A DNA stretch of 64,000 bases, taken from assembly GCF_036785885.1 (NCBI RefSeq), contig NC_092323.1:12098501-12162500 (forward strand). Reading direction: 5' to 3'. This stretch comes from Coffea arabica. Lineage: Eukaryota; Streptophyta; Magnoliopsida; Gentianales; Rubiaceae. Below the pieces are notes generated by a model. The model worked only from the letters and a program-made list of their open reading frames with translations. It was not told the origin of the DNA and did no database searches. Positions within the stretch are counted from its first letter, which is position 1. The number at the start of each line of letters is the position of its first letter. Both the position numbers and the translations under genes were made by a program. Of the stretch, positions 4,324 through 50,964 are shown one piece after another.

Positions 4324-4676
4324 ATCTCCCCCTTTTTGATGATGACAAACAAAATGAAGATTTCTTTGATCAAATAAGTTCAAATAAAACTCCCCCTTAG
4401 AAAATGCCAACATACAAAGAAACTTCAATAAGTCCTACTCCCCCTTTTGGCATCAATATAAAAATATTAGCCCAAATCTACATTTTGGTTTGTTAATCAT
4501 CAAAACCAAGGACTGATCAACCAAGGTCAACAATCTCCCCCTTTTTGATGATGACAAACAAAATGAAGATTTCTTTGATCAAATAAGTTCAAATAAAACT
4601 CCCCTTAGAAAATGCCAACATACAAAGAAACTTCAATAAGTCCTACTCCCTCTTTTGGCATCAATCAAAAAGCCAA
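4258..4676. repeat. Tandem duplication across the LTR end and purine tract
   Basis: A segment of about 209 bp starting TTAGCCCAAATCTACATT occurs at about 4258 and again at about 4467. It covers the last ~65 bp of the left LTR, the purine tract and the adjacent interior. The second copy therefore carries an extra LTR edge and an extra purine tract inside the element. Confidence 0.8.
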
Positions 4677-6218: not shown

Positions 6219-6276
6219 GATCTTTACTCCAAGCCGATTGAGCTTGGTCTCAAGGAGACCAAGCTCTGATACCAAT

Positions 6277-7313
6277 TGTAAGGCCGGGTGCAACCCAATG
6301 AGTACAAACAATTTCACAATGATGCACAAAGATATATCAAATTTAAGCACAATAAAGAAAACTTAATTAAAGAGAAAAGATAAGAAATGCAAACCAAATA
6401 TCAATCCAATAGCCTCTTCAATAGATGGCGATGCTAACCAAGATGTACAAGTGAAGGCTCACTCCTTCCTCACCCCAAACACTCTTTGGTTGAGCCAAGG
6501 AGTTTTACAACTATTCTAGTTAACCCTCAACAACCTACACTTGAAAGATCACTCACCCAATTAAGAACTATTTTATACAAATGAGGCAACCTTCACCAAG
6601 GTTTTACCACTTCAAGTGATAGGTTCACCTTCACCAAGGTTTTACTCCACCTAGAGAGTAACCTTCACTTGAGCAACCTCACAACCCAACTTTCCCAACC
6701 CCTTATACAACCAACAAAGAATCTTTCTACTCAAAAATCTCACTTGTAAGCTTGTATTTTGTGTTGGCAAAAGTCCTCTGCCTTCTTGTGTTTTGGGGTA
6801 TTTATAGAAGGTGAGAAATGGCTCCAAAAGGCTCTCCAACGGTCAAATATTAAATGCTGTCGAAACTAGCCGTTGGCCTGTCGAACGTCCGACAGTTTAG
6901 TCATCGCCCGATCCCATCGTCCGAAAAATCAGTCAAGTTGTTGTTCGGACGTCCGATGGGATTTTATCGTCCGAGCTTCTGTGTCCGAACGTCGTCCAGA
7001 GAGTTATCAATTCTTCGTAGAATTTTTAGGACGTCCGATGAGATTGATGTGCGTCCGAAGCATGCGTCCGATCCATCCGGACGTCCGATACTTCCTCACG
7101 AGCGTCCGACAGAATTTCCTTCTTGATGTTCTTCATCCTTTCGGACGTCCGATAGCTTCCTTTCGGACGTCCCACATGAGTGCCCTGTTTTTGCTTCTTC
7201 TTTTGTGCCACAAGAATCTGTTCTAACAAATTGCTCACATAAAAACATTAGCCCAAATCTACATTTTGGTTTGTTAATCATCAAAACTAAGGACTGATCA
7301 ACCAAGGTCAACA
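6277..7313 (-). repeat. Right LTR (5' LTR in sense)
   Basis: Partner of the left LTR, flanked on the outside by the target copy AATAA (7314-7318) and on the inside by the primer-binding site. The CGTCCGA cluster lies at about 6880-7175. Confidence 0.9.
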
Positions 7314-10361: not shown

Positions 10362-10789
10362 GGGAAAAATGCACTTTTCATCTTCAAAATTTGGGCTGTT
10401 GACTAATTTCATCCTCAAAGTTTCACCCAAAACACATTTCATCCTCAAAGTTACGTAATTTTGGCCAATTAAGGACAATTGACGGGAAATAAAGAAATTG
10501 GTGTTAAATCCAACTGTAAACCCAACAAAAAATGGATTTAACCGAATGGAGCCATTTTTTAACAGAACAAAAATTGTTGCAACGGACGAAAACCAACATT
10601 CTTCTCCTTCTTCCCTCTGTCTTTTTGCAACCCCAAATTTTTTTTCTCAATCTCTGGATTTCTTAGACGTTTGCAAATGCCAAATCCAGTTGTAAGGTTC
10701 GTTTACTTGGTGGAGGTTGATTTCCACCACATCCCCATCCCTAACACCCACCTTGGTTTCTTCCTCCTTCACCTCCCTATCTCCAACCG

Positions 10790-11290
10790 TCTCTTTCACC
10801 CCCTCTACCACCACCACCACCTCCTCCACTACTGCCGCCGCCATCACCACCACTCCCACTTCCCCAACCATGGCCTCCACCATTTCCACCACCGCCGCCT
10901 CCTCCTCCACCTCCACCCCCACCCGCACCTCCACGTCCATCTCCACCGCCACCACTGCCAGCACCTCTGCCACCACTACCTCTCCTTCTACCGCATGTAT
11001 GTTTTCCTCTCCTTTTCCTCCTTCCACCACCTCTCCCTCCACTACCACTTCCACCGCCTCCACCTCCATCTCCACCGCCGCCGCCACTACCGCCGCCGCC
11101 ATCCCCTCCTTCTCCTCCACTACCTCCATAGTGCGCAACCTGATTGCCATTTACTTCCAGAACTCGTACCGTTATGGTGAACAATCACATTCCCATCCTT
11201 TGCATGTTGACCATTTCCACTCTCACTTCCCCAACCACCGCCTCCTCCATTTCCACCACCGCCTCCTCCCCCACCCCAAAACAATAGATG
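10790..11290. repeat. CCN/GGN low-complexity stretch inside the Pack-MULE
   Basis: A run dominated by CCACCN, CCTCCN and CCGCCN triplets. All frames stay open because stop codons are rare in such sequence: the + frames give Thr/Ser-rich or His-rich peptides and the - frame a Gly-rich peptide. It may be a captured glycine-rich coding stretch or a simple-sequence expansion. I do not call a gene. Confidence 0.6.
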
Positions 11291-11885
11291 GGATTATCTG
11301 AGGATGGGTGGAGAGATTGTGAAATATGGATATGATATCGAGCTTAGCCTGCACGCTTAGATTCTGGAAACCGCGTTCTTCTGCCAATTGGGAATTCAGA
11401 GATCCAACCAGGATTTGGGCAGCCCCATATGCTGCGATTGCTAACTTGTTAGCGGAGCAAGAAGAAAGAACCAAGAGGGCTGCTGCTGCAAGGTCAATCA
11501 ATGACTCTTTTTGGCATTGAATGATCTCCAACAATATTGGTATGGCACCAGAATTTGCAATTCGGATCTTGTTTCTGCAAAATCATAGCAAAATTAGATG
11601 GGGAACAATTCTACAGCCAATGCCTTCGGATGCAACTTCAAAAATTGCAAAATTTAACTGATGCAAACAATACCTTTCATTGTGAAAAGCTAGACAATGC
11701 AGAGCAGAGTGCAGCTTTAGTGGCTTCATAAACTTGCTTACGAAGCATCGTAACGAGCCGAGAAATGATCCCTCTTTCTGCTAACTCTGTCTTAGTTTGG
11801 TTGCAAGTTTACCAAGTTCTCTGGCAGCTAAAATCTGAGCTTCCCGTTCATTAGATAGAAGGGTTTCCACTATCACATCTTCCAT
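11230..11885 (-). pseudogene. Captured armadillo-repeat gene fragment (U-box type likely)
   Basis: Read on the - strand, peptides typical of plant armadillo-repeat proteins occur in order: one near 11885-11780 (EREAQILAARELGKLATKL), a short one near 11740-11690 (LVTMLRKQVYEATKAAL) and a longer one at 11534-11290 (ANKLAIAAYGAAQILV, SVQAKLDIISIFHNLSTHP). Such repeats occur in plant U-box E3 ligases (PUB proteins). The pieces are separated by non-coding sequence compatible with introns and the first is interrupted by a stop, so genomic DNA rather than a cDNA was probably captured. The fragment ends in the low-complexity stretch. It is not a working gene; the parent should lie elsewhere in the genome. 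Confidence 0.65.
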
Positions 11886-12281
11886 GGTTGGAAGCCCTCT
11901 ATCCCCCTCAGTCACTTCTCAACTCTCTTTATGTGAATTTGAAAATATAGAAATTTAGTATTTGATTGCTTCAAGGTGGTGTAAGGTTTGGCTTTTGGGA
12001 AAAAATTTTGGAGTTGCAGAAAGGCAGAGGGAAGAAGGAGAAGAATGTTGGTTTTGGTCCGTTGCAACAATTTTTGTTCTGTTAAAAAAAGGCTTCAGTC
12101 GGTTTAACCCATTTTTTGTTGGGTTTACAGTTGGGTCTAACGCCAATTTCTCTACTTCCCGTCAATTGTCCTTAATTGGCCAAAATTACATAACTTTGAG
12201 GATGAAATGTGTTTTGGTGAAACTTTGAGGATGAAATTGGTCAACAGTCCAAACTTTGAGGATGAAAAGTGCATTTTTCCC

Positions 12282-18228: not shown

Positions 18229-19539
18229 GTTATGACCATACTTTTCATGTTCATGTGTGCGATTTGTATGCTTCATTTCTATGCCTACGTTTGAGAAATA
18301 TTTGCCTAATACTTTCTTTTTTTTCCCTTGTAATTGATTTAAGTTTTGGAAGAAGGTTCCGTGAAACAGAGTGCAGCATACTGTTTTTGTTTATCTGAAA
18401 ATTCGAATTGCAGCAACCTAGGAGATATCAGTGGTGATTAGATAAGCTGTTGCTATAAGCAATAGAAGCCGCAATCTGAATGAATGAGAAAGTTTTAGAA
18501 AGCAGCACCGGAATAAGTAGGCTTGTATACAACTAATAATAAATAAAGTTGACTATTGAGGACAGCAGATGCGTCGAAAGTTGCTGGTTCATTAATACAT
18601 ACGTACAAAAGAAGAGGGTTCATGAAAAAATCAACGACCCTTGTAAGAAACTTGCCAAAATGTAGGAGTGCAAACCATTGGTAAGGCGCATCTATCTTAG
18701 GAAGACAAAAAATGAATAACTCTACTCTAGGTTAGTTTCGATTTCTTGGCAGAGCTGGTGGGTTCATCTGGAGAGTTGCCTGCGTTGAGCTTGTCTAATT
18801 CATCAAATTTTTCAGAAAGGCGCATGTGAGTCTTTGAAGGCGCAGGATTTTGCTCTGGAGCAAGTTACATAACAAAGAATTGGTTAAGAAATAGCAAGTA
18901 AATAACAGTACATGAAAAGAGAGCATACGTAATTAAAGCGTAAAAGGGTAAACATAGAACAAACTTAAGTAGTCTTAAAGCTAGTGAGCATAATGCAAGT
19001 GTCTTGCTCTGTACGAGCACTAGGAATAAGGTTAGGACAGAATAGGTATTAAAAACATGAGATGAACTTGCATAAATAAAAAGGTTTCATTTTTCTACAG
19101 GACGTTGGCACATAAAAACTAAGAAAGAATATCATTTTTTATTGAATGCATGCTGCACAAAATACTTGAGGCAAATAAATGGAAGAAGAAGGCAAAATTT
19201 GGAACTGATATCGCAAATTGAATAGAAGGTGAAACGGCCTAAAAAACAACAGAGTTAAGAGTTTGGACAAATCTACACGGTTGTGGTTAGGGGTGAGCAT
19301 CGAATTCGAATTCGGTAATTCGGTAGTTGAAATCGGTAAGTTTCGGTAAATGGTTCTGGAAATATTCGACCTAATTCGCATTCGAATTAGAGACTACCGA
19401 ATTCGAATTCAACCCGAATTCAATTCGGTAAACCAAAAAAATACCGAATTACCGAATTCCAGAAAACTGCTTCTTCGGCCCATTTTTCATCAGCAAATAG
19501 CAATGCTATTGAACTGAGCCACAACTTACAAATTGTTCG

Positions 19540-20045
19540 AATGTAACTGATCACAAATCACTCCAGAAATTCGAAATCAAAACAACACACAATTCACATT
19601 GATCATTAAAATTCAGAAATCATAAACAAATTCACAAACAAATTACACTGATCCACAAACAAATCACAAATGACAAACAAATCCAGACATCACAAATCAG
19701 AAATCACAAGTCCAGAAATCACACTGTTGCCCTGGTGCTACAAATCAGAAATTCCACTGATCCACAATCATAAATCAATCTAGAAATCATAATGAAACAA
19801 AAATAAAAGTCTAAATTAACTTGTCCAAAAATCACAATCCACATTCCACAATCTAGAAAGCCACAAAGCCACAAACTGCAATCCACAATCCAGAAACTGC
19901 AATCCAGAAACTGCAACTTCAGCCACAAGAAGAGTTGCAATACAGAAACTCCAATCCACAATCCACAATCCACAATCCAGAAACTGCAATCCACAATCCA
20001 GAGTCCAGAAAGCCACAAGAAGAGTTGCAATACAGAAAGCCAATT
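19540..20045. repeat. Minisatellite-like repeats in the hAT left arm
   Basis: Irregular tandem repeats built from AATCCACAATCCAGAAACTGC-like and CACAAATCA-like words. AAGAAGAGTTGCAATACAGAAA occurs twice, in shortened form ending AAGAGTTGCAATACAGAAA, near 19928 and 20020. The repeats lie between the subterminal motif cluster and the end of the transposase gene. Confidence 0.7.
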
Positions 20046-20179
20046 ACGCTGAAACTGCAACTTGCAACAAGAGTTGGTTCAACCCTCAAAATGCAAACTT
20101 TAGCATTTGTGACCTCTCAAAGGTCAATTATAGTTGGTTCAGTTCCAGTCTTCAGCAACTCTGCAAGAACAAATAAAAT

Positions 20180-22330
20180 TCATGAAGTATCATAAAGGCA
20201 ATTATTAGAAAGAAAGAAATACTTCAAATTCTGCAATAAAAATTTTGATAGCTTACCAGATTCGAAGGCTTCAAGCTCTTCCAGATTTTCTTCTACATTT
20301 AATTCTGTCTTGGAGGACCGAAGCCAATCTTGAGCACATATTAAACCTTGCACAATTCTAGGAGTCAAAGAACTCCTAAATGTATCAAGAACACGACCTC
20401 CGGTACTAAAAGCAGATTCAGAGGCCACGGTAGAAATTGGGACTGCTAACACATCACGAGCAACTTTGGAAAGGATTGGGAATCTAAGGCTATTGGCCTT
20501 CCACCATAACAAGATATCAAATCTCTCATCATCTTCCTCACAATCCTCATTCAAATACTTCTCTAATTCAGATTTTGCATCCCTACCCCCAAGTTCCATT
20601 TTTCTCTTCTTAAACTCCAACTTGTACCTATCAGTGATTGTTTTAGAGGCATTCCCATGTCCATGAAATGTAATTTTACTCGTTGGAGAATCACTTGAAA
20701 GTGAAGAAGCATGAGAGGCAGGTGTGTTGAGCATCTTGTATTCATTAAACAGCTCAAACATTGCATCTTTTGCAAGGCCAGCTATTGTTGTACCATCGGA
20801 CTCACCATACATTTGACAAACCACAAATTCAAGGTATTCAAGTTTAGTTCGAGGATCAAGAATGGAGGAAATAAAAATCAGCATATTCATCTTTTCAATC
20901 TTTCCCCAATACTTATCATATTTCTCCTTCATTGATCTTGCCATTGAACTCAATTCATCATTATCACTTGCTGTCATTTCAATTAAAATGCCATGAATGT
21001 GACTAATATCAGTGAAAAAATTATTTGAAGTCACATATTTGAAACCGGAAACCTTCACAGTTAGCTGATAAAAGTTTTCCAAAAAAATCACCAAGAATCT
21101 AGCTTTTGTCCAATCAGATTTTGTTGGCAGATTTTCTAACTCTTGAAGCATATAAGGATCCTGCTCCTCAAACCTCTCAAAAGCTCGCTCAAACCTTTGA
21201 GCTGTGTCTAGCATTAGATATGTAGAATTCCACCTAGTAGGTACATCTAAACAGAGCAATCTTTTGCATTCAATTTTTTCAATTTCAACACACTCCTTGA
21301 ATTTTTTCAATCTAGAAGGTGACTGTCTAACATATCTAACTGCTGCCCTGATACAATCAACTGACTCCCCAAGTTTTTTGATGCCATCATTAACAATTAG
21401 ATTCACTATGTGAGCTACACACCTCACATGAGTCCATTTCTCCCCTAACACAGCTTTTCCCCAATTTTGAAGCTTTCCTCGTAAATACTGGACAGCTACA
21501 TCATTGGAACTTGCATTGTCAACTGTGACAGTTAGGATATCATCAACTCCCCATTCTAGTAGACACTTTTCTATGGCCTTACCAACTTCAGTTCCCTTGT
21601 GACTAGCAATAGGACAGAAATTTAGGATCTTTTTGTTCAGTTTCCAATCATTATCTATGAAATGGGCAGTGAGGCACATATAGTTTATCCTTTGAATGGA
21701 TGTCCAAGAATCTGTGGTTAAACAAATTCTGCCACTGTTATTCTTCAAGAGTTGTTTCAACTTAGTTTTTTCATATAAATACAGCTGATAGCAATCTCTA
21801 GAAATAGTCCATCTCGAAGGAATTTTAAATGATGGACAAGCAGTCCGCATCATATATTGAAAGTCTCTACCCTCTACATGTTTAAATGGCAACTCATCAA
21901 CAATTACCATATAAGCTAAGCTTTTTCTAATGGCTTCCGCATCAAATTTCCAACTTATGAGTGCCCCTTTAACCTCTCCCGCTAAGGTTTCAGTTTCACC
22001 CAAACACAAAGTAGCCTGGCCAGTGTGCTTATTTTTAGGATTTAGAGGACATTTAGCTACATGAGTATTAAGGGGAGTCGTACCATGACTTTTGGGATCC
22101 GCAGCTATGTCCTTGTCACAGTACTTGCAAATTGCATGACGAACTCCATTCACATGCTTTACATGAAAATGATCCCAAGCTTTGGACCTCTTCTTGTACT
22201 CTCATCTTTTCTTGGCAAAACCAGATTCTTCGCAGCTTTGTGTAGTAGGACTAGGAGGAAGAGTTCCAGATGATCCTTCTTGTTCCAGCTCATTGCAACT
22301 TGGATTACTCTCACCATCAGTAGTAGACAT
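20180..22330 (-). pseudogene. hAT transposase (Ac/RICESLEEPER type), one in-frame stop
   Basis: The long frame covers 657 codons from 22153, but that first codon is GTG; the frame continues upstream through a single TGA (22202-22204) to an ATG at 22330 (MSTTDGESNPSC). Domains in order: BED zinc finger just after the stop (KAWDHFHVKH ... CKYCDKDI ... LNTHVAKCP), RNase-H-like catalytic core with the Asp regions LTTDSWTSIQRINYM and VTVDNASSND, a helical insertion with C-x-x-H-type residues (HVRCVAHIVNLIV), and the C-terminal hATC dimerisation domain (VPISTVASESAFSTGGRVLD) with the catalytic Glu. It acts in the nucleus, cutting the element at its TIRs. A splice donor-like GGTAAGCT near 20257 may skip the last ~25 codons. 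One C-to-T change (CGA to TGA) would explain the stop; readthrough or an internal start after it would lose little of the catalytic core. Confidence 0.88.
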
Positions 22331-23599
22331 AGCTTCAGTGTGCCAGCACTTGAAACCTTTGACCAGAACAAGGACACAACACAAAGATTTCACAAGTCAG
22401 AAAAGGTATATAATACTTTTTTCTCACTGACCTCAGTAGGTCTAATTTCATATCCAATCCAAGATATTTTGAGAAAATTTGCTCATAGCTTCTAAAGAAT
22501 AATACGACCCTGAAATCTATTATTCACATATTCAAAGTGGAAAAGTAGGAATAATCTCTAAAAGTATACTAATCCATCAAAATTTATGTGTTCATCTTAA
22601 ACCTATTAGATAAATATGTAATACTACATGATTCTGAACCATCATTGGTTTCATGCATCAGATGAGTTCAGTAAGCTAAAACCAGAACAAAGTTTTAGAC
22701 ATTAATCAACATACTCAACCAGAACTGCACAACGACCATAGCTCAGAACTACTTTGTGAAATTGCCTGTCGCTAAGGTTCAATGATTAATCCGACACAAT
22801 AGTGGAGCATCAGCCAGGAAGAAAAAGCCATAAAAAATCAGTTCAATAGAACAAAAGGAACAGCCAGGAAGAATAATTCGATACAAAGGTAAATTTACAC
22901 GCAGAATTCATTTGTTAGTTTCCATTTTAATAGAGGAAAAAATAGCAAAATGGACAAAACAGGCCGAGCCCCAAAAGAAATATGTGAGAAAGAGAGAGAG
23001 GGAGAGGAGACAAACCCTAAATCTTGGAACGAATGCTAAGGAGACTGGAGACTGGAGACTGGAGGAGGCTGGACTGCTGGAGGAGTGAGTATGGAGACTG
23101 GAGAGAACCGGCTGGAGGAGGCTTCTGTAGTTGAGGAGAGGAAAGGAGAAGCTGTCAAACTGAGAAAGTATCTTCAGTTGAGGAGAGAAGAAACTCAGAA
23201 ACAGGCAAACAGCTTGGCTTAGACTTCAGTGGGCGACGGCGCAAAGGAACGAGACTACGAGAGGAAGAGGAGAGCAGAAATAGTGAAATTAGAACGAATG
23301 CTAATTTAGGGTATTGAAAGTCTGAAATTGGAACATCCGACAAAAGCTTGAGGTATAATAATATTCGGAATTTCGAATTTGAAAACGGTAGTATTTTACC
23401 GTTTTACCGAATTAAATTCGAATTCGGTAAATCCGAATTCAAGAACCCCAAAACCAAATTCGACCCTAATTCGATTCTTACTAATTCGATACCACCGATT
23501 TACCGACCTAATTACCGAATTCGAATTACCAAATTGAAATCGATTTCGGTCGGTAATTCGGTAATTACCGTAATTGCTCACCCCTAGTTGTGGTAGTCA

Positions 23600-26487: not shown

Positions 26488-29400
26488 TTACTGCTGAGTC
26501 AAATGAAAGATTTCATTAAAGACAACGTTCCTAGTTTTGCAGTTAATCTTTTTCTCATCAAAAGTTCCAGGAATAAGAAGAACTTTAAGGTGAGCAGCAG
26601 TTCTAGCTCTAGAAAGTGCAACGTAAAGCTGTCCGTGGAAAAAAACAGGTTCACGCAAGTAAAGACCCACATAGTCAAGAGTTTGTCCCTATGCCTTATT
26701 AATGGTTAAAGCAAAACAGAGGCGGATAGGAAATTGAGTTCTTATGAACGGAATCCCATTTCTTTCATTGTCAGAGGTCTGAAGAGGTATTTTTGGGATG
26801 AAGACTGTTTCCCAGCGTGAATGCCAAAAATAATTTCTGCAGAAATGATATTCAAGCTAAACTCTCTACATATTAACCTTGTCCCATTACACAATCCTTC
26901 ATTAGGATTTAAATTCCTTAAAAGCATAATAGGACAGTTTTCTTTTAGCAGCAACTTATGAGGAGGAAGTCCTTTTGGATTCTGCGAATTTAGAAAATCT
27001 TCATAGTCACCTTGGTGCTGCTGCTCAACAGTCCGATCTGAACTTATATAAATTTGAACATTTTCATGAAATTTGTTTATCAATAGCTCATTTAGCTCAT
27101 CGACTGAGCTATTTTTGGGAGTAAGGATGCATCTATTTATCATCCTATAAGGATCTTTAGAATACAGCTGCAAATCTGGGAAAACACTCTCAACTAACCT
27201 GTTTAGAGTTATAAGTAGCTATAATCAATGAAAGACAAGGTTTAAAAAAAAGAATCAGCTAGATAAAGTATAATTGTATGTAGTTGTTAACCTATTTAAA
27301 GATTGATCTTTATCATAATAAGAAATAACTATATCAGGTGATAAAGCGATTTCGCCGTTTGCATCTACAGGCTCTCTTCCCTCGCCTATTCTTAATAAAA
27401 ACTGAGAGAAAGCATGATCTAACATGGCTCTCATATTCTGCGTGAGTTTCAGTTTGTGTAACTTAGACCAGAGAACAGAGTTAGGAAAGCTTGATTCTAT
27501 GAGGACATGCTTTGTTGCTCGCTCAATAACCGACAAAGTTTGCCGAAAATCTCCACAAAAAATTACAACTTTTCCTCCAAAAGGCAAATTAGAATCCATT
27601 ATATCTTTAAGTAGATCATCAAATGCCTAAATTGTTTCTCGCTTAGCCATCGATGCTTCATCCCAAAGGATAAGTTTACACTCTAAAAGCAATTTGGCAA
27701 TACTGCTTTGTTTGCTAAGTTGACAAGCTTTATTCTTTGAAAAGTCCAATGGTATCTTAAATCTTGAGTGCGCTGTTCGTCCTCCAGGAAGAATAGAAGC
27801 TGCAATGCCAGAAGTGGCTACAGCAATGGCAATGTAACCCTGCGATCTAAATGTAGCAAGCAGCGATCGGTATAAGAATGTTTTACCAGTCCCTCCTGGA
27901 CCATCAATAAAAAAAGCTTCACCCTGAGCAGAAAAATATGCTGCAAGAATCAGGTCGTAAGCATTTTTCTATTCAGAGTTCAATTTGAGAGAGAGTAAGA
28001 GATCCTCTGGAGCAACATGTAAACCCCTTTCGCTTTCGATCTCCTGTGTCAATCGTTCATGAAAAGGAGAATGGAAATCATTTGAAGTTAATTGGTAATC
28101 AGTTATTCTTTTTCCTATTTGCTCCAATGATCTGTTAATGTCTTGTAACGCTCTTGTTGTGGTCTCTGAAGGAGTAAGGACAGAAAATGAGCATTGGTGC
28201 TGGTAATCTGTTAAGAGGTCACGGTGAAATTTTTCCCACAGGAGCTGAGGATTTACTGGAGAACAATGAACAAGCAGAGTGGCAAATAGCAATCTTAAGG
28301 AAGATGGCATCTGGAAGGCCACGGCTTCTTGGAGTGTATCATCTATGTAAGTATCAGATTGCAAAAGTCCTAATGCTAAAGCAGCTCCTCTAAAGGAATT
28401 CAGCTTTTGATCAGCAACTGTCAAAATATCATCAAAAGAAGTTGGCCCATGAACATGATTTAGAAGAAGTCTCAAGTAGTATCTTTCTCCATTTGCTGGA
28501 CTAACAGTAACCATTCTACCTATCACATTTCGACGCTTCCTCAGCCCATTTTTTATATTTAGGAAACCAAACAAAAAATTGAGGAAAATCCTTGTAAAGA
28601 CATTTAAGGTTCTGTGCAACCACATTTGTTTTGTTTATATGGAAAAATTCAGTTAACATGGTTTTTGAAAAATCAACTTTGCTCAATAATTGCAACAGAT
28701 CAGAGTTTTTGTCGAAAGAAATAAACTATTGGTCTGGAAGATGGATCTGAAGAGTATAGACCGCTGGAGTTATTTCACTTAAGCGGAATTCAAAAATGCG
28801 CCAAAATGCCTCAGGAGATGAAATCCATCTACCTTGCTGAAATTCCTTTATTTCATCAGTGTCATCAGGGGCATGATGCGAAACGACCTTAAAATTGATT
28901 GAGTCATGGCCTTTGAAAACATACTTATACATGTACTTCACCAATTTAACAGTCGAGCAAATTTCTACATTGATATGGCAGTCAAATGTAGCTAACAGAT
29001 AGGGACTATAAGACACAACCCATATGTTATCAAAAGTATGCCTTCGGATTGTGATTTTTCTTCTATCATCCCTCCTTCTGTATTGTGGATAACTATCTTC
29101 AGCATGAGTCGTTTGGCTACAAAAACTCTTTGGATAGTGATTTTTACAACGACCATCCTTCATACAAGGGCAAGTTCTATCCATATCACCACAAGGACCA
29201 TGAATCATATGCTTCACAACAAGTGAATATAGATGAGGATGCTTAGAACGATCAGGTATTTTAGCACAGACCACTCTATCATATGACTCTGGATTTAGGA
29301 GCTTGTATTCAAGCTTCAAAATTAGTAGCATATGCGTATGTGGGAATCCACATTTTTGGAACTCAATCACATAAACATACGCTGCAACTTCTCCAAAGAT

Positions 29401-32021
29401 TTGTTTGTTCAAAACTTCTGATTTAAGCAATTCAAACTTGGCTCTAAAGACTCTAGCCAGAAGGTCCGGTCTGTCCTGAGGTTTTCATGGTACTTTAGAT
29501 TATCCTGAATTTCCTTCCATGCTGGGTTGCAGGTCATAGTGAAAAAGATATCCGATTTGCCATATTTTTGCACAAGGGACATTGCATCAAGATATTGACG
29601 TCTCATGTCCCTTGGTCTACCTATAAAGGAAGCTGGTAATATGGTTCTACGGCCAACTTTAGAAGCATTGGTTTGGCCTATTGAAATACTGTCTAGGACT
29701 CCTTGAAGAACCTCAGAACGAATGTTGTTCTGTCGGTTTCAATGAAAGTCAAGCCTAGACGTTTCAATCTTAACATAACCATCTACTGCATACTGTTGTA
29801 ATAGTCTAAGTGAGTGCAGTAACATTGATTCATCATCATCTCTGATCTGAAATCTGTAACAATAGTATTCCCTAGCTGACACCGTGTCTTCTTTATTTTT
29901 TGAACAATCAGCAGCTAGAGAAAAATGATGAGTAGTTATTTAGGCTGATGATATCTTATAATGTAAGAAGAATGGGTAAAAGCAATTGGGTAGAAGCGGC
30001 AACAAATAACTTGCCTCTTTGTTCACGATCCAATAAACTTGATGCAGAATCGACCGAAGAAGGATGAATGTTGATATCTTCCTCACAGGAATCCTCTCTT
30101 CTCTTTTTTTTTCGAGCTCTTTTAACTCCAGGGTGCCACTCGCATTCACCGCAGGGAAACAGAATAGGGTATTGCAATGGATCATAGCAGCCATGGTAAT
30201 GTTTAATTCTATAGCTGCTATTTGAATGAGTATACACTTGAATATGAGCTCCCATATGGTCTGATTCATCTTGATTTTCAGTCCATATTGCTGCAACTTG
30301 GGACGCAGAAGGAAGGTTATAAACTCGCTGGTCAAGGGCGGGATAACAGCAAAATACAATGTTCAAGTTGTTAATGTTTGGAACATGGCTAAGGTTTCTG
30401 AAGAACTTAGCATAAGGATTGTTACTAAGAATGCGCATAAGGAGTCTTAATGTGGTTGCTCGCAACTTATCAGAAGCAGCAACCCTCTTTGCTAATTCTT
30501 CATCAGTGTCAAAGAAGTATAGTTGAATCCCAGATGCTGTATCGTCTGACCGGAAAAGGCCATTAAGAAAATGATAAACCTGACCTTGAACACGAAAGAT
30601 GTAAACACCTTTGGTGTTCTTTGTTAGTTCAGAATCATATTTAGCAGTAAATGATGTGAAGCCTAAGTTATTGTTGTAAGTGCGAGCATTATTCCTAAAA
30701 TGGAAGCTCTCCTCATCGCTACCAATGAATAAGCGCTTCAAATCGTAAGGCATAGGAGGAGCGACAACAGAAATTTCTCCTCCTGCGCAGCAAAAATTAG
30801 GCGGTTCCAAATGGAATCTTTTCGCCCCACAATGGCCACAAGGAGTAGCATCAGGCAAAGCCAAAGACTCATTAGGAATATTGTTCACGAGGGAAAGATT
30901 TGGCTGGCCACGCCTCCGTTTTCTCCCTGTGGTTGTTTGCATGCAATTTGTAAACATGTTGAGTTAAGACTGTGTATAAATAGGCAAGAAGGAATCCTAA
31001 ACACAGGCAGAGATAAGCGAGAAACAACACTAAACCTGCATTCTCTGTTCTCACGGTAGAAGAGTTACTACGTTTCTTGCTATGTGCAGAAATTGCAGAG
31101 GATGGATGAAGAGGAGTATTCCTATTTTTTTTCCTTCTCTGGCGAACAGAGGTCACTGTAGACTGGTTAAAATTGCTTGCTGGAAAAGAAGAAGTTTCTG
31201 TGGATAATAAAATCCAATAAGACAATTGGTAAAGTTGTGCAGGGCTTTGTATATGTACATTTAATTATTAACAGGAAAAGATGCTTAAGAGGTGAAGAAG
31301 CAAGTAATGGGGCCGCAAGTTATAGCGAAAAAAGAACTAAACAAGGATTATTGGAGAGAAGAACTGCACTAAATGAAAGTTGAATCTGTGGAAACACTCG
31401 GTAATGGAGGATGCATTTTTTTTTGCAAAGTGGCCGATATATGGAAAACAAAATTTGCGGCTGAGAGGAATATAAGGTGAAGAAGACGCAGCTGCTATAA
31501 GTTAAAACGGGCATAATTCTGAACAGGAAAGGCTTGCAAGGTTTCAAATACTAAATAGGAGCACTGCAGGATTCAAACAAAAGGGAACTCATTTTTAGCA
31601 ACACAGAGTGCATAGTAAGCAATAGGAAGGCAGAGGAGCAGCAATAAAATGGAAGAGGAAAATTCAAATCCAGCAGAAAATAAGCTAATTAAGAAATACC
31701 TTCATTAACAGATGATGCAGACCTGGGAGGCATATTTTTTTTAGAAGACGGTGAAGCACGATCATTGAGCAAATTAGATACATCAGGAGTGTAATGGAAC
31801 TCTCCACACCCTATAACAACACTCTCAACTGGAAGAAAGCACTCTCGATTTTCTAGTGTATTAGAAATGACAGGAGGTTGATCCTCATTACCAGAAGATC
31901 TATCATGACCATACGCAAAACAGACAGTAGATTCCACACAAGCAGGAGGAACCTTGTGAACGTGAGAGCGGGAAATTTTTTGTTTTTTCTTCTCAGATCT
32001 AGCCTCTCTCAGAGAACGCAA
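26488..32021 (-). pseudogene. Helitron RepHel transposase (HUH Rep plus PIF1-like helicase), decayed
   Basis: In sense order: an N-terminal exon (32021-31700), a basic exon (about 31197-31040), a long exon from about 30935 with zinc-finger-like CGHCGAKRFHLEP and the Helitron N-terminal core, then the Rep domain near 29590-28730. The HUH site is FPHTHML and the paired-tyrosine region KYMYKYVFKG. The helicase follows: Walker A GPGGTGKTFLYR near 27900, Walker B-like LILWDEASM near 27670, FCGDFRQTL near 27550 and the C-terminal VALSRARTAAHL near 26600. RepHel nicks and unwinds one strand for rolling-circle transposition. At least five codons expected to be Gln or Arg are stops (around 29738, 28728, 27967, 27631 and 26692) and at least two frame changes occur (near 29430 and 28560), so it is inactive. 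Confidence 0.9.
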
Positions 32022-33455: not shown

Positions 33456-34486
33456 TATAAAAGAGCGAATGCCATGGCTCAAAAGAGGTGCTTGTGTTGG
33501 AGATGTGGCCAATCGTTATTGGCTGGAGAGTGTTCGTCCAAGTAGCTCGTGCTCCTCACGTGAGTTTACTTTGGATTCCATTGTGTCTCCAAAGAAGAAA
33601 AAGTACTACTCGGTCTCCAAAGTAAAGTACTTTGCCTCCAAAGAGTATGTCAGATGTTTACCTGCTTCCCATCTCACTTTCTCTGTCTCGGACAGAAAGT
33701 TGAAGGTTGAAGTTGTGGGTAGTTGTCAGAGTGCTTCATTAAGACAGAAACTAACACCTCTTGTAAATACTCCCAAAACTTGTTCACAATTCCAGCTGGT
33801 GTTGCGAAAATAGCCTTGACCATTTTTTGTAGTGAAGTGAGAAATGCTGTGCGAGGAAGGAAATTAGGTAAGCTTATACCTTTAACTTCCTCCAGGATGC
33901 TAATCTCTTCCTCCAAGAACTGCTGCTTTTGTTCAACTTTGATAGACGAACACTCTTCCTTTCTCGCTCTCCCTCTCTGTCAAACGATGACCAGATCTAT
34001 CATTTATCTACATGTTTTCTTTCTTCTTTTCTTCTTTGTTAATAAACAAAAATTAAAAACAAATAAGGCACTTTGATGTTTTTTGTTTAGTTTTTGTTTC
34101 TTTCTTTGTTTTCTTGAATTTGCAGTTACTCACAATCGCATTTTGCTTCTCATAGATTGCGGACAATGGATTGAATGTCCACGAGAAGGAGAAAAAGAAT
34201 CAACTTTCCAGGTTGTGCGATTTTCTTTAATTTATTTTTCAGTCTTTTTCCAATTTTACTCTAGTATAGCAGAAAGCAAGAAAGAAACACCGCTGAAAAC
34301 GAGGCCATTTAGTCTAAGTCTGCTAAGAACTAAGAAATAAGAAACAAGGACAGATTGAATGAAGCAAAAAAGGAACGGAAAGCAAACGAATTGGAGAGGA
34401 AGTTGGACGAACACTCTCCAACCAATCACGTTTGGCCACATCACCAAAAGTACACAATCTTGAGGTATGGCATTCCCTCTTTTATA
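33456..34486. mobile_element. Pack-MULE-like inverted-repeat element with captured dynamin-related gene piece
   Basis: About 90-bp imperfect inverted repeats: 33456-33545 (TATAAAAGAGCGAATGCCAT ... GGAGAGTGTTCGTCCAA) match the complement of about 34396-34486 (TATAAAAGAGGGAATGCCAT ... GGAGAGTGTTCGTCCAA). The interior holds a DRP4-like fragment on the - strand. I could not find a convincing target duplication, so the exact ends and the MULE assignment are tentative; the design matches a Pack-MULE. Confidence 0.65.
33700..33955 (-). pseudogene. Captured dynamin-related protein (DRP4-like) fragment
   Basis: On the - strand about 80 codons read SIKVEQKQQFLEEEISILEE, then ISLPNFLPRTAFLTSLQ, then FWEYLQEVLVSVLMKHSDNY and PQLQPS. 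This is the stalk/middle region of plant DRP4-class dynamin-related GTPases (ILEEA-x-G-I-x-LPNFLPRTAFL ... VLMRHSENYPQLQ). The GTPase domain is absent, and similarity ends at about 33700. It is a captured fragment, not a gene; the parent should be elsewhere in the genome. Confidence 0.7.
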
Positions 34487-34556
34487 CCTATTGTTAATGA
34501 GAGTAAACTATTTCCAAATAATAAATAAATAATATATCCTCTCACTCAAAAAAAAA

Positions 34557-36289
34557 GGGATAATTGCAGAAACCTCCCCTGACTTTTATAGTAATAGCAT
34601 TGACCTCCCCTATCAATTTTAAAATAGCACTGACCTCCCCTATCAAAAGTTTGAGGCAATTTAATAGGCAAAAGTGGGTCAATTTACTAAAGTACCCCTG
34701 ACATGATTTAATTTTACCAAATGAATGTGATAGTACTTTCATCAAACCCAACAAAACATTTGTTAATAAAAATTACACTAAATTAACTATTTCTGCATAG
34801 TTTAACTAATTAACTAATTAACTAAATAAACTAAATAACTAATAATCTAATTAATTAATAACTAATTATCTAATTAATTATTAACTAATTAACTAATTAT
34901 CTAATTGTTAATAGTTATTAACCAATCAAACTATTTCTGCATAGTTAAACTAATTAACTATTAACTAATTATCTAATTAACTATTAACTAATTAACTAAT
35001 TATCTAATTAATTAATTAACTAATTAACTAATTATCTAATTAACTAATTAACTAATTAACTAAAGCTGTTGTCTGTCCGAAACTAACAAACTATTTGCAT
35101 GTTAAACTAATTAACTAATTAACTGCTTAACTAATTAACTACCTAATTATCTAATTAATTAATTAACTAATTAACTAATTTTTGTTTATCTAATTATCTA
35201 ATTAACTGAAGTTGTTGTCTATCCGAAACTAACAAACTATTTGCATGTTAAACTAATTAACTAATTAACTAAAGCTGTTGTCTATCCGAAACTAACAAAC
35301 TATTTGCATGTTAAACTAATTAACTAATTAACTGCTTAACTAATTAACTAACTAATTATCTAATTAATTAATTAACTAATTTTTGTTTATCTAATTAACT
35401 AATTAACTAATTTCTGTTTATCTAATTAACTAATTAACTAAAACTGTTGTCTATCCGAAACTAACAAATTATTTGCATGTTAAACTAATTAACTAATTAA
35501 TTAATTAACTAACTAACTAATTAACAAACTATTTGCATGTTAAAACATGCAGTACGCATTATCTATTTAAAGTATCGGCTCTTTATGGGTATTTTACTTT
35601 CAAACATTTAATTTATGATAAAAACATCAATGTTTGTAAGTAAAATTCAAAAAGTGTTACAGTAATATTCTTACAAAAAGGGAGGGGCATAGAGCCATAA
35701 ATTAAATGTTTAAAAGTAAGAATATTGATATTACTGTAATACTTTTTGAATTTTACTTACAAACATTGATGTTTTTATCATAAATTAAATGTTTGAAAGT
35801 AAAATACTTATAAAGAGCCGATACTTTAAATAGGTAATGCGTACTACATATAGTTTAACATGCAAATAGTTTGTTAATTAGTTAGTTAGTTAATTAGTTA
35901 ATTAGTTAAGCAGTTAATTAGTTAATTAGTTTAACATGCAAATAGTTTGTTAGTTTCGGACAGACAACAGTTTTAGTTAATTAGTTAATTAGTTAATTAA
36001 TTAATTAGATAATTAGTTAATTAATTAATTAGATAATTAGTTAATAGTTAATTAGTTTAACTATTAACTAATTAGATAATTAGTTAAGCAATTGTCAAGC
36101 AAATAATAATTGTCAAGCAAGTAAGGGCAAAATTGGAAGAAAATTCTTATCTCACTTCTACAAAAAGCTGTCAAGGAGGTTTCTGCAACGAATTGTTACT
36201 GTTCAGGGGAGGTGAATGCAATTTCTAAACCTAGAGGGGAGGTCAGTGCAAATGTCAGAAATATCAGGGAAGGTTTCTGCAATTATCCC
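34557..36289. mobile_element. Foldback MULE-like element, 1.73 kb, almost one palindrome
   Basis: Inverted ends GGGATAATTGCAGAAACC are flanked by A-runs of at least nine bases that could hide a 9-bp target duplication. Each end repeats GACCTCCCCT words every 30-40 bp. Inside, arrays of TTAACTAA-type repeats (left about 34780-35530, right about 35870-36090) face each other, and a unique segment at about 35535-35675 is repeated inverted at about 35718-35870 around a spacer of roughly 40 bp. There is no coding capacity. Confidence 0.8.
34790..35535. repeat. TTAACTAA tandem array with embedded higher-order unit
   Basis: Nearly continuous repeats of (T)TAACTAAT. A longer unit containing GTTGTCTRTCCGAAACTAAC and CAAACTATTTGCATG recurs near 35066, 35210, 35275 and 35443, so the array expanded in larger blocks as well as single words. 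Its complement occurs once in the right arm near 35920-35975. Confidence 0.8.
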
Positions 36290-36536
36290 AAAAAAAAAAA
36301 GACATTGGTCCAATATTATCCACACACACATTCACGCACAGGTAATTATTGGAAGTACGATTCATGTCATAAATGAATCATGTGATAATTCAGACGCTGC
36401 ACCAGACCATTATAGTATGTGCCAGAATGTTTCCCTGTATATCCTATACTTCACGAGAAAATTCTTAAATTGTGATGAAAAAAAAAAGTTATTCTACAAA
36501 GGGGGTGATTTGTGAAGTTGGTTCCACAAATGTGAT

Positions 36537-36700
36537 CTTCGCATTTGTGAAATGCGAGTTCAGGTACCTCGCATTTCACAAATGCGAGGTAAGTGTTTTC
36601 AGAAAAAAAGAAAAAAAGTTCGCATTCTCCAAATGCGAGCTTATAAAGCTCGCATTTGGAGAATGCGAGCTGAGATACCTCGCATTCAAGAAATGCGAGG
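36537..36700. repeat. Left array of five CTCGCATT...AATGCGAG palindromes
   Basis: Imperfect 22-23-bp palindromes start at 36537, 36567, 36618, 36648 and 36678, mostly 30 bp apart. Outer arms (YTCGCATT / AATGCGAR) are constant; the inner bases are GTGA, TCAC, CTCC, GGAG and CAAG. The first two are reverse complements of each other, as are the third and fourth. Confidence 0.9.
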
Positions 36701-37160
36701 TACTCAATCTTCTTGCTCCATTTGCTGGTACAAGAACCAGCATGAAGTACAAGACTTCGCGGTTGCAAAATGAGAAGCAACAAATGGGATTTTTCTTCAT
36801 TTTTCTTTTTTCTCCAAGATTACCAATACACAATTCCACCTCACTCACCAGAAGATGCCAAGAATATTCTGGAATTAAGAGCATCAAACGGCTCAAATTC
36901 TGGCCATAAAAATGCAGCAAACAATTACCATGGATGCCAAGAACTGGGGCTGAGAGTTTTGAGGGACTGAGGAAGACAAAGAGCAAGAGTGAAATGGGGG
37001 GAAAAGGGAAGAGTGGAAGCAAGAAGCTTTCGGAGGGTTGGAAAGGATGAGCTGGAGCAGGAAAGAAAAGAAAGCAGAGGAGAAACTAAGAGAAAAAGGA
37101 GGAACTTTGCAGCTGGGTTTGTAAGAGAGCTACGGGTTGAGTGAGTTGCCTGGGCGAGAA

Positions 37161-37322
37161 CCTCGCATTTGTTAAATGTGAGGTATATGACCTCGCATTT
37201 AACAAATGCGAGGTCTGTTTTTCTTTTTCTTTTTTTTTTTTGATTTGAATGCTAGGAAAATTCAGGAGACCTCGCATTCAGCAAATGCGAGTTCCTCGAG
37301 CTCGCATTTGCTGAATGCGAAG
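37161..37322. repeat. Right array of four CTCGCATT...AATGCGAG palindromes
   Basis: Palindromes start at 37161, 37191, 37270 and 37300, again in pairs 30 bp apart. Inner bases are GTTA/TAAC and CAGC/GCTG, each pair mutually complementary. Distances from the right end of the element (80, 110, 189, 219) mirror those of the left array (83, 113, 194, 224). Confidence 0.9.
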
Positions 37323-37463
37323 ACCCCTCGAACGGAATCCCATACAAAAAATGTCCCCTTTGTAGAATTTTTTTAAAAATCATCATAATTTTAGAAATTT
37401 CTCTATACTTCACACAATTAAACCATTAATAAACCTTAGCTTCTAAACCCCAAGTATTCGGCC

Positions 37464-38868
37464 ATGGCTAACGAGCCCAAATTACACGTAGTTATGTTCC
37501 CATGGTCGGCCTTTGGGCACATTATCCCGTTTTTGGAGCTCGCAAAATTCATAGCTCAAAGGGGTCACGAGATCACCTTCATTTCCACCCCAAGAAACAT
37601 CGATCGCCTCCCAGAAATCCCACCAATTTTTGCTTCTTCTATAACCTTCGTCAAAATTCCACTGCCCAGAGTTGAAGGACTTCCGGAAAATGCGGAGGCC
37701 ACCATGGACATCCGTAACGAGGACATTCCCCATCTCAAGAAGGCCTATGATGGGCTCGAACCCGAGTTGACTTTCTCGAGAGCTCGCTTCCGGATTGGAT
37801 TATCTTCGACTTTGCTCCTTACTGGTTGCCTCCAATTGCTGCCAAGCTGGGAATTTCTAAAGCATTCTTTTCAATTATCAACTCATGGTTTTTGGCATTT
37901 CTAGGACCGTCAGATGTAATGATCAATGATGCAGATCCAAGATCGACGGTCGAGGATTTCATAGTTCCTCCCAAGTGGGTTCCTTTTGAGACAAAAGTGG
38001 CGTACAAGCCGTACGAGATCAACTGGATTCTAGGAGCAGGTCAGGAGAATGTAACCGGAGTATCTGACAGCTCCCGTTCGGGAATGTTAATGAAGGGTTC
38101 TGATGTTATTGTCGTAAGACAATCCTACGAGTTTGAAGGGCAGTGGTTGAAGCTTCTTGAGGAGCTGCATCAAAGAAAAGTGATTCCTTTGGGATTAATG
38201 CCACCCCAAGTGGAAAAGATTAGCAATGATGGGAATGATTCCTGGGATTCAATCAGGGAATGGCTTGATGTTCGAAACAAGGGCTCAGTTTTGTACGTCG
38301 CATTGAGGTGTCACTCAGTCAAACGGATGTCACTGAGTTGGCACTCGGGTTGGAGTTATCTGGGGTACCATTTTTCTGGGCGCTAAGGAAGCCGTCTGGA
38401 TCCACCGAGTCAATTCAGGTGCCAGATGGGCTTGAGGAGAGAGTCAAGGGGAGAGGGACTGTGTGGAAAGGCTGGGCCCCACAGTTGAATATACTGAGTC
38501 ATGACTCAGTGGGTGGGTTCTTGACTCACTGCGGTTGGAGTTCATGCATAGAGGGACTTGTGTTTGGTCATCCGCTGGTTATGCTCCCATTTTTGGTGGA
38601 CCAAGGGTTGAACGCTAGGGTTATGGAGGATAGGAAGGTTGGAATTGAAATACCCAGGAATGAGCAAGACAGGTCATACACGAGAGACTCGGTGGCTGAG
38701 TCTGTTAGGCTTATTATGGTTGCAAATGAAGGGAAAATTTTCAGGGAGAAAGCTAAAGAAATGAGTGGAATATTTGGAGACAGAGAATTGCATGACGGCT
38801 ACATCCAAAAATTTATAGATTATTTGGAGAACAATAGACACAATCCCATGGATGGATTGTGCCACTAG
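37464..38868 (+). pseudogene. UGT91-like glycosyltransferase pseudogene (two frameshifting deletions)
   Basis: Full-length relative of the neighbouring UGT genes, starting [19 protein letters not shown] (catalytic His present) and ending with a normal C-terminus (FIDYLENNRHNP). Alignment by eye with the intact genes shows two short deletions: about 4 bp near 37771-37780, just after EPELT, and about 7 bp near 38303-38307, which removes the LGSE loop that binds the donor. Each shifts the frame. The PSPG box near 38468-38600 is intact and ends in the normal Asp-Gln, unlike the copies to the right. Few other defects are visible, so inactivation looks recent. A MULE-like element sits 61 bp upstream and may have altered its promoter before or after the deletions. 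Confidence 0.9.
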
Positions 38869-49059: not shown

Positions 49060-49575
49060 TATGTAGCTTGTATCGTAAAGTGTATTAATCTAGTAATTCA
49101 ACAATTTAAATACCTATAAACCGATTAGAGTTCACAATTACTCAACTATTTATAACAAAATCAACCTATTATATATCACGTAAAAAAAAGTTATATGTGT
49201 AGTAAAAAAAAAGAAAAGAATAAACAACAATAGTAGTTCATTTCTTATTTGTTATTGATACTAGTAATAATTGATTAATCAATATTCCTATTTTGTTCTT
49301 ATATATTTGAATACCCGACTGAATAATTTGTCGTATTAAAGATAAAAATTGTCTTATTAAATTTTGACACAGTGACTAGTACATCAATCATTTTCCTGGT
49401 ACTATGAACTCACATTTCATGTGATCTGCCAACAAGAAGCAACTGCTGAAAAGGCAGTAAATCGAATCAATTGGTCCACGTCGTACCACCCAGCTTCTAT
49501 GTATCAGCACGTTGTGCACTCTGCAGGCAAGGCGGAAAAAACCATAATAGAGTTCTAAAGTTCCAATAATATTTC
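49060..49575 (+). promoter_or_regulatory. Upstream region of UGT gene H
   Basis: The last ~140 bp (from GTAAATCGAATCAATTGGTC at about 49457) are nearly identical to the upstream region of the UGT at 61203. The TATA-like word at the equivalent place reads CTATGTATC here (about 49497-49505) but CTATATATC in the 61203 copy. No other gene. Confidence 0.55.
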
Positions 49576-50964
49576 ATGGCGAACAAATCCGGCAGCTTAC
49601 ATGTTGTCATGTTCCCATGGTTAGCCTTCGGCCATTTCATCCCTTTTCTAGAGCTCTCAAAATTCATAGCTCAGAGAGGTCACAAAGTTAGCTTCATTTC
49701 CACCCCTAAAAACATCGATCGCCTCCCTAGAATCCCTCCAGAGTTTGCATCTTCTATTACCTTTGTAAAAATCCCACTCCCCCCAGTCGATGGGCTTCCC
49801 GAAAATGTGGAGGCCACCGTAGACCTTGGCGATCTTGATGTTGCCGTTCTCAAGAAAGCCTACGACGGACTTGAGCCCGAGTTGACTCGTTTCTTGGAGT
49901 ACTCGGCTCCGGACTGGATTATTTACGACTTTGCCCCATATTGGATACCTCACATCGCAGCTAAGCTCAACATATCTAAATCATTCTTTTGTATTAATAG
50001 CGCTGCCAGTGTGGTATTCTCAGCACCCTCTCTTGATGCGATGGTCGCGGGTACTGATCCCAGAACTAAGCTCGAGGATTTTACGGTTCCACCGAAGTGG
50101 ATCCCATTCGAGAGTAAATTGGCATTCAAGTTGCACGAGAGTAGATTTGTTGTGCGAAGTAAGAACCTAGATGGATCGGGTGTATCGGATTCGTATCGGT
50201 TCGGATCGGCTATAAAGGGTGCAGATGTTACATTGATAAGATATTGCCCCGAGTTTGAAGGCAAGTGGTTGAAGTTGCTTGAAGATTTGCTACAGCGGCA
50301 TATAATACCGCTGGGATTAATGCCACCCCCGGTGGAAAAAAGCATCGTCGAGAACAACGAGTCCTGGATTGCAATCAAGGATTGGCTTGATGGTCAAGGT
50401 AAAGGCTCGGTGGTTTATGTGGCACTTGGGAGTGAGGTATCACTGAATCAACTCCAACTCAGTGAGTTAGCTCTTGGGCTGGAGTTATCCGGGGTACCAT
50501 TTTTCTGGGCACTAAGGAATCCATCTGGGATGCCAGAGGGGTTCGAGGATAGAGTCAAGGGAATGGGTATCGTTTGGAAGAATTGGGCACCTCAGCTTAA
50601 CATACTGAGTCATGACTCAGTGGGTGGATTCTTGACTCACTGCGGGTGGAGTTCGAGTATAGAGGGGCTCATGTTTGGTCATCCGCTCATTATGCTGCCC
50701 TTTAATATAGATACGGGGTTGATTGCTAGGATAATGGAGGAAAAACGGGTGGGGATAGAAATACCGAGAAATGATGTAGATGGATCGTACACGAGCCACT
50801 CGGTGGCCAACTCGGTAAGGTTGATTATGGTGGAAAACGAAGGTAAAATCTTCAAGGACAAAGCTAAAGAAATTAGTGCAATATTTGGAGATCAGGATTT
50901 GCATGACAGTTACTTGCAGAAGTGTGTAGATTACTTGGAAAAGAAAAGACATGAATCCGAATAA
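49576..50964 (+). CDS. UGT91-like UDP-glycosyltransferase (gene H, hybrid)
   Basis: Intact 462-residue single-exon gene. Catalytic His20 and Asp118, LGSE loop and PSPG box (337-380, ending Asp-Thr) as in gene A. The upstream region and first ~16 codons ([15 protein letters not shown]) match the 61203 gene, whereas nearly all later differences, and the 3' flank, follow gene A: for example IPHIAAKLNISKSFFC and SAPSLDAMVAGTDPRT. A few sites between codons 41 and 70 (Ile41, Pro67, Pro70) still follow 61203. This is the structure of an unequal-crossover product. Function is as for gene A, but expression would follow the 61203-type promoter. Cytosolic; acceptor unknown. Confidence 0.92.
   Translation: MANKSGSLHVVMFPWLAFGHFIPFLELSKFIAQRGHKVSFISTPKNIDRLPRIPPEFASSITFVKIPLPPVDGLPENVEATVDLGDLDVAVLKKAYDGLEPELTRFLEYSAPDWIIYDFAPYWIPHIAAKLNISKSFFCINSAASVVFSAPSLDAMVAGTDPRTKLEDFTVPPKWIPFESKLAFKLHESRFVVRSKNLDGSGVSDSYRFGSAIKGADVTLIRYCPEFEGKWLKLLEDLLQRHIIPLGLMPPPVEKSIVENNESWIAIKDWLDGQGKGSVVYVALGSEVSLNQLQLSELALGLELSGVPFFWALRNPSGMPEGFEDRVKGMGIVWKNWAPQLNILSHDSVGGFLTHCGWSSSIEGLMFGHPLIMLPFNIDTGLIARIMEEKRVGIEIPRNDVDGSYTSHSVANSVRLIMVENEGKIFKDKAKEISAIFGDQDLHDSYLQKCVDYLEKKRHESE

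Follow-up and report, generated by a model that had tools for sequence, protein, structure and literature searches.

Which process keeps the variable centres of neighbouring palindromes complementary to one another within the ends of a DNA transposon? The question is raised by a 949-bp element in a 64,000-nucleotide stretch of the Coffea arabica genome (contig NC_092323.1, positions 12,098,501 to 12,162,500), referred to here as the window. An earlier note on this DNA described nine palindromes with covarying centres in a MULE-like element, and proposed that the covariation points to maintenance of structure or to inverted gene conversion. Coordinates below are those of the window, and features carry a strand only where one is named.

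Anatomy and class of the element

The element extends from 36455 to 37403, as defined by its target-site duplication (TSD) and terminal inverted repeats (TIRs); an element is thus present where the note had placed it (36454-37402), with the coordinates corrected and a 10-bp TSD lying outside them. The left (36445-36454) and right (37404-37413) copies of the TSD, TATACTTCAC, are identical, and the length is within the range for Mutator-like elements (MULEs), whose TSDs are ~8 to 11 bp long. The available part of one MULE report gives 8-9 bp (PMC5225508). The outer TIRs lie at 36455-36506 on the plus strand (GAGAAAATTCTTAAATTGTGATGA...TTCTACAAAGGGG) and at 37352-37403 on the minus strand, the latter defined by its alignment to the left end, and are 79% identical over 52 columns; inverted-repeat similarity of the two ends extends across 265 columns at 66%, such that the TIRs are long and degenerate. 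TSD length and TIRs together fit a non-autonomous MULE, and the anatomy agrees with the label originally given. Because the TSD is perfect, there is a weak suggestion that the insertion is young, and therefore most of the divergence between the two ends probably predates it.

The longest stop-to-stop open reading frame overlapping the interior (36703-37155), at 36576-37085 on the minus strand and the one frame tested, has no Pfam match. MULEs are mobilised by DDE transposases of the mudrA type, and no transposase is seen in the element. The long open reading frames that run across the palindromes are probably by-products of the 30-bp pitch, which corresponds to 10 codons.

Nine palindromic units form two subterminal arrays

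All nine of the expected units are found, each 21 bp long and of the form YTCGCATT-N5-AATGCGAR, with five in the left TIR (starting at 36538, 36568, 36619, 36649 and 36679) and four in the right (37162, 37192, 37271 and 37301). The motif had been written with a four-base gap, in which form it matches none of the nine even at 3 mismatches; the true gap between the 8-base arms is five bases, of which four differ between pairs and one, on the spacer side, is a fixed A or T. Start-to-start steps are 30, 51, 30 and 30 bp on the left and 30, 79 and 30 bp on the right, and the grouping into pairs 30 bp apart holds exactly for four pairs, leaving unit 5 as an orphan. The distances from the element ends to the arrays are 83 and 82 bp, mirrored as described. 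The arms are nearly fixed, also as described, with one of 18 altered beyond the Y/R position, by a CpG-to-TpG change in unit 6 (AATGTGAG).

Read from the nearer end, all five terminus-side units have the form YTCGCATT-Ynnn-AAATGCGAG, and three of the four interior-side units have the form CTCGCATTT-nnnn-AATGCGAG, the remaining one having CTCACATT. Since the units on the two sides keep these distinct forms, the module appears to be an inverted pair of 51 bp, reading YTCGCATT-Ynnn-AAATGCGAG, a 9-nt spacer and CTCGCATTT-nnnR-AATGCGAG from the nearer end, with one arm base differing in one unit. The functional module, too, looks to be the pair and not the single unit, because the spacer-side A is present in 5/5 terminus-side units, although this would fit selection on a hairpin too. 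The orphan unit 5 (36679-36699; centre CAAGA) is of the terminus-side type and sits at the border with the interior, its inner partner missing: the slot 30 bp further on (36709-36729) has 5/21 matches, the commonest value for unrelated positions.

In a comparison of the left and right ends that omits gap columns and counts unit 3 separately, the arms are identical at 63/64 positions, the outer TIR at 39/51, the DNA between units at 52/93 (53/100 with unit 3 pooled) and the centres at 7/20. Unit 3 is without a counterpart in the right TIR, with 1/7 aligned columns identical. This end-to-end footprint marks the arms as either recognised or homogenised, and the centres as free apart from their pairing.

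The footprint raises the question of what might bind. In the available portions of two accounts (PMC5735166, PMC10398659), the targets of VANC anti-silencing proteins are typically dense short-motif arrays in non-coding DNA, within MULEs whose TIRs are degenerate, and the arrays of the focal element could bind a protein of this kind instead of a transposase; 17 of the 18 CpGs in the units are intact (the element has 26 in total, 9 of them outside the units), which speaks for the same reading. VANC21 motifs lie in one orientation, as far as the accessible text of these sources goes, whereas the units described here are near-palindromic and inversely paired, and the VANC21 motif itself, YAGTATTAY, is absent from the element and has three matches in 64 kb against 2.45 expected. 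We consider a VANC-type target hardly probable.

Neighbouring centres are complementary

Four of the five neighbour pairs at 30 bp have fully complementary centres, at all 20 centre positions and with no half-compensated intermediate; all four of the reverse-complement matches reported for the centres are correct, and extend to five bases. Pair 1-2 (36538-36588; centres TGTGA / TCACA) folds as a 20-bp perfect stem with a 9-nt loop, pair 3-4 (36619-36669; CTCCA / TGGAG) as a 26-bp stem including one T-G with a 3-nt loop, pair 6-7 (37162-37212; TGTTA / TAACA) as a 25-bp stem including one T-G with a 5-nt loop, and pair 8-9 (37271-37321; CAGCA / TGCTG) as a 23-bp stem with a 3-nt loop, pairs 3-4 and 6-7 being folded with 2 bp extra on each side. 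The outermost base is mismatched in DNA (T-G or C-A) in three of the four. The fifth neighbour pair, units 4 and 5, matches at 2/5 centre positions and folds with a 3-by-3 internal loop at -16.9 kcal/mol, compared to -24 to -30 kcal/mol for the complementary pairs.

Each pair had been proposed to fold either as two small cruciforms or as one hairpin with a uniform 23-bp stem and 7-base loop. It is the long hairpin that covaries, with stems of 20 to 26 bp and loops of 3 to 9 nt; the near-constant arms of the two-small-hairpin structure leave it with zero pairs changed on both sides, and two independent cruciforms per pair are thereby ruled out as the covarying structure. Tandem direct duplication of units is likewise ruled out, neighbours being complementary rather than identical. 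A likeness of centre classes between the ends (1-2 with 7'-6', and 3-4 with 9'-8') was set aside as involving too few bases.

Permutation of the nine centres gives four or more complementary neighbours in 768 of 362,880 arrangements (p = 0.0021), a conservative test in that the complementary set of centres is retained, and the probability of complementary centres with independent columns is ~2e-8. Covariation was scored on the four complementary pairs, all from one copy and with units 4-5 left out: 98.8% of 84 cells are paired (G-U allowed), and neither the covariation score nor the count of cells changed on both sides is reached by any of 500 shuffles. Chance would draw some support from the shortness of the sequence, the small number of pairs and the two of five covariation measures that shuffles do reach, namely the four column pairs changed on both sides (16/500) and the pair types (15/500). 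The permutation and independent-column tests nonetheless make it very unlikely, the fold z-score is -27 (against 20 shuffles), and we give chance practically no weight. The proposal of maintained structure or inverted conversion is thus supported, by covariation of the long hairpin in one copy and four pairs.

Long hairpins with short loops are rare in the window. A scan for stems of 17 bp or more, with no more than one mismatch and loops of 3-12, overlaps merged, returns five in 64 kb, of which four are the pairs described here and the fifth is AT-rich and lies in the neighbouring element. The strong folding of the stems (20 to 26 bp) might suggest small-RNA precursors, made by the host or by the element, but stems of this length closed by loops of 3 to 9 nt make poor precursors for Dicer, and there are zero Rfam matches at the gathering threshold in the window; this origin for the hairpins is very improbable.

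Origin of the complementary centres

One possible history would have each pair arise by its own recent inverted duplication, with no subsequent maintenance. Pair 3-4, with its long stem and 3-nt loop, and with unit 3 lacking a counterpart in the other TIR, is what such an event might leave behind. Against it, the spacer measures exactly 9 nt in each of the four pairs, and again between unit 4 and unit 5, and the pairs have a common polarity and resemble copies of a single 51-bp module. If they are such copies, at least three centre changes would have occurred after the pair was duplicated. Independent duplications are therefore a quite unlikely source of the pairs.

Selection could alternatively keep a 21-bp hairpin, a cruciform or single-stranded hairpin being recognised by transposase or by a host factor, and mutations in the centre becoming fixed only if compensated. 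The pairing of 20/20 centre positions across the four pairs, the invariant spacer-side A/T, and the concentration in these pairs of four of the window's five long short-loop hairpins are all in its favour. Stepwise compensation would pass through mismatches, however, and no half-changed centre is present; the outermost base is mismatched in most of the pairs; and eukaryotic transposases usually read duplex half-sites. Selection on the hairpin covers the same facts as the templated copying considered below, less economically, although it does fit the invariant spacer-side A/T. We regard it as unlikely, though deserving of some weight.

The explanation that we favour, with confidence a little below even, is that the units are phased protein-binding half-sites in a non-autonomous MULE and that hairpin-templated copying keeps the paired centres complementary. 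The 7 to 8-bp arms would be half-sites for a dimeric DNA-binding protein supplied by an autonomous partner, either its transposase or an accessory protein of the VANC type, and at a 30-bp pitch successive sites would lie on about one face of the helix. Spacing and arm conservation fit phased half-sites for an end-binding protein, as do subterminal repeats in Hermes, two of which form a quasi-palindrome bound by two BED domains (PMC10368747, as partially available). The long TIRs of Mutator elements harbour transposase binding sites according to the part available of PMC3310237.

Phased half-sites alone leave the matching of the centres unexplained. Each unit is self-complementary, which would allow a strand that is nascent or broken within it to fold back on the adjacent unit and copy that unit inverted, whether through template switching, inverted gene conversion or the correction of quasi-palindromes. 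Such copying would rewrite the neighbour's centre as its reverse complement, and the covariation would therefore be for the most part a side effect of how a hairpin-forming array mutates. Constancy of the arms would be upheld by binding, possibly aided by the same inverted copying. Compensatory template switching has been published (PMC8794818, in the section available). Copying of this kind predicts neighbours that are complementary rather than identical, a pitch that is kept, and exclusive pairing where three units follow in a row (unit 4 with unit 3 and not with unit 5), all of which are seen. It also predicts complete replacements, with which the full compensation of all four centres in this one copy would be compatible. 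The copying would nevertheless be incomplete, since the outermost mismatches in 3/4 stems and the CpG decay in unit 6 persist uncorrected.

A 30-bp pitch in two other elements

Two further MULE-like elements are present in the window. The first (10362-12281) has 283-bp TIRs at 92.6% identity and a 9-bp TSD (TATAATCTT), contains an open reading frame with an Armadillo-repeat match, and is likely a Pack-MULE. The second (~34557-36289) is an AT-rich foldback element that adjoins the focal element, with poly-A flanks, GGGATAATTGCAGAAACCTYCCC ends, and an interior in which repeats of the TTAACTAA type form a large inverted array. A scan for TSDs and TIRs across the window gave seven rows, comprising the element at 10362-12281, three in a hAT region (19312-23518) and three in an AT-rich array (34960-35515). 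The focal element is missing from it, probably since its merged TIR alignment (66%) is below the 70% cut, as is the whole element at 34.5-36.3 kb, the poly-A flanks of which were filtered.

Both elements have short motifs at a pitch of about 30 bp at both ends, although these motifs are direct, non-palindromic and different from that of the focal element. TTCATCYTCAAA occurs in the first at 16, 47 and 77 bp from one end and 16, 47 and 76 bp from the other, and ACCTYCCC in the second at 34572, 34603 and 34633 with a mirrored set at 36206, 36236 and 36267. The top lag is 30 in five of the six TIR segments of the three elements, the sixth having 60 first and 29 second, and the best score at lags 28-33 is reached by 0/200 shuffles in each segment. 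Of 1168 overlapping background segments, each 250 bp long against 140 to 300 bp for the TIR segments, 3.3% score at least as high as the weakest of the six, and in 0.4% the top lag is in addition 29-31; the three elements are a biased sample, in that the pitch was spotted before testing and the tips of the two other elements are alike. Given only 34400-37500, Tandem Repeats Finder detects period 30 in both of the elements located there, at one end in each case.

The tips of the two other elements resemble each other (GGGATAATTGCA and GGGAAAAATGCA), and because of this likeness the two may be related by shared ancestry. Comparison of the focal ends with the ends of both gives only 10-18-bp matches, with E values of 0.04 or worse.

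Other features of the window

The window contains several UGT-like genes. One of them (37464-38868) has its ATG 60 bp beyond the focal element and is probably a pseudogene, because its open reading frames run through three frames. A further UGT copy (49570-50964) is open and has a UDPGT domain; of two UGT-like pieces tested, one has this domain and the other, from the broken copy (37751-38386), has no match. A hAT transposase frame on the minus strand (20180-22201) runs for 673 codons without a stop and has hAT dimerisation and RNase-H-like domains, together with a BED finger match that falls short of the curated cut-off. Several open reading frames at 26742-30963 (minus strand) probably encode fragments of a Helitron protein; a match to a PIF1-like helicase is given by the single frame tested (27627-27968). 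Near-identical 118-amino-acid open reading frames at 3880 and 6870, within 3880-7226, surround a copia-type gag frame on the other strand, and are probably the two LTRs of one retrotransposon.

Comparison with known systems

Subterminal-repeat MULEs as such are already known, and the paired palindromes are real and unusual. Muta1 and the foldback MULEs (PMC5225508; MuTAnT, PMC4486113), as portrayed in the portions available, resemble the focal element in having a MULE TSD, long TIRs built of repeated modules, and non-autonomous derivatives with foreign interiors. Muta1 has nine 12-bp repeats in tandem with 3-4-bp spacers, and ten mosquito families of Muta1-like MULEs have tandem repeats of 9-15 bp, again from the part available of PMC5225508, whereas the focal element has 21-bp palindromes in inverted pairs, a 30-bp pitch and covarying centres. 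The VANDAL targets of VANC (PMC5735166, PMC10398659) share the non-coding arrays of short motifs in degenerate-TIR MULEs, with repeats that evolve together, but have same-orientation motifs of another sequence, and covariation is not mentioned in the passages available. Hermes (PMC10368747) likewise has subterminal repeats near its tips, two of them in the quasi-palindrome noted above, but belongs to the hAT superfamily and has shorter sites, with no mention of paired-hairpin covariation in the available extract.

Template-switch hairpins (PMC8794818) provide the likeness of multi-base compensatory stem changes arising from one copying event, although the available section reports them for RNA genes and not for transposon end arrays. 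The short interrupted repeat cassettes (SIRC) of Arabidopsis (PMC10342631) are short repeats split by diverse DNA, often in mobile elements and some with palindromes, but they are direct repeats with dissimilar spacers, and complementary centres are not mentioned in the accessible part of that account.

The statement in the earlier note that no MULE of this design had been described is thus too broad, arrays of short repeats in MULE ends being known from Muta1 (PMC5225508), VANDAL/VANC (PMC5735166) and foldback MULEs (PMC4486113), at least as these are partially available. Its narrower sense stands, in that paired covarying palindromes were found neither among the matches listed in open-licence literature nor in the available parts of the Muta1, foldback MULE, VANC and SIRC accounts. 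Searches of the same literature with the arm or TIR letters gave, by title, no such element among the matches listed; a soybean tandem repeat (PMC2330051) was rejected, the letters occurring once and neither Mutator nor palindromes being mentioned in the text available. The paired unit, in exact and relaxed patterns, has 0 matches in viral and prokaryotic contigs and the single extended unit 0 in viral contigs, which says nothing on rarity in plants.

Significance

Covariation is commonly read as strong evidence of a selected structure. Occurring here at the level of DNA, beside constrained arms that resemble protein sites, it provides a clean natural case for setting structural selection against hairpin-templated mutation. 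It is possible, although we would not call it probable, that a MULE family keeps its subterminal control arrays as near-perfect hairpin modules with a 4-bp box that is free but self-matching, such that either hairpin DNA is recognised in transposition or templated copying homogenises the binding sites, and that the 30-bp module pitch, found here in three arrays whose motifs differ, may be a design rule common to MULE ends. If the pitch of these three elements is general, it would predict how MULE transposase assembles on long TIRs.
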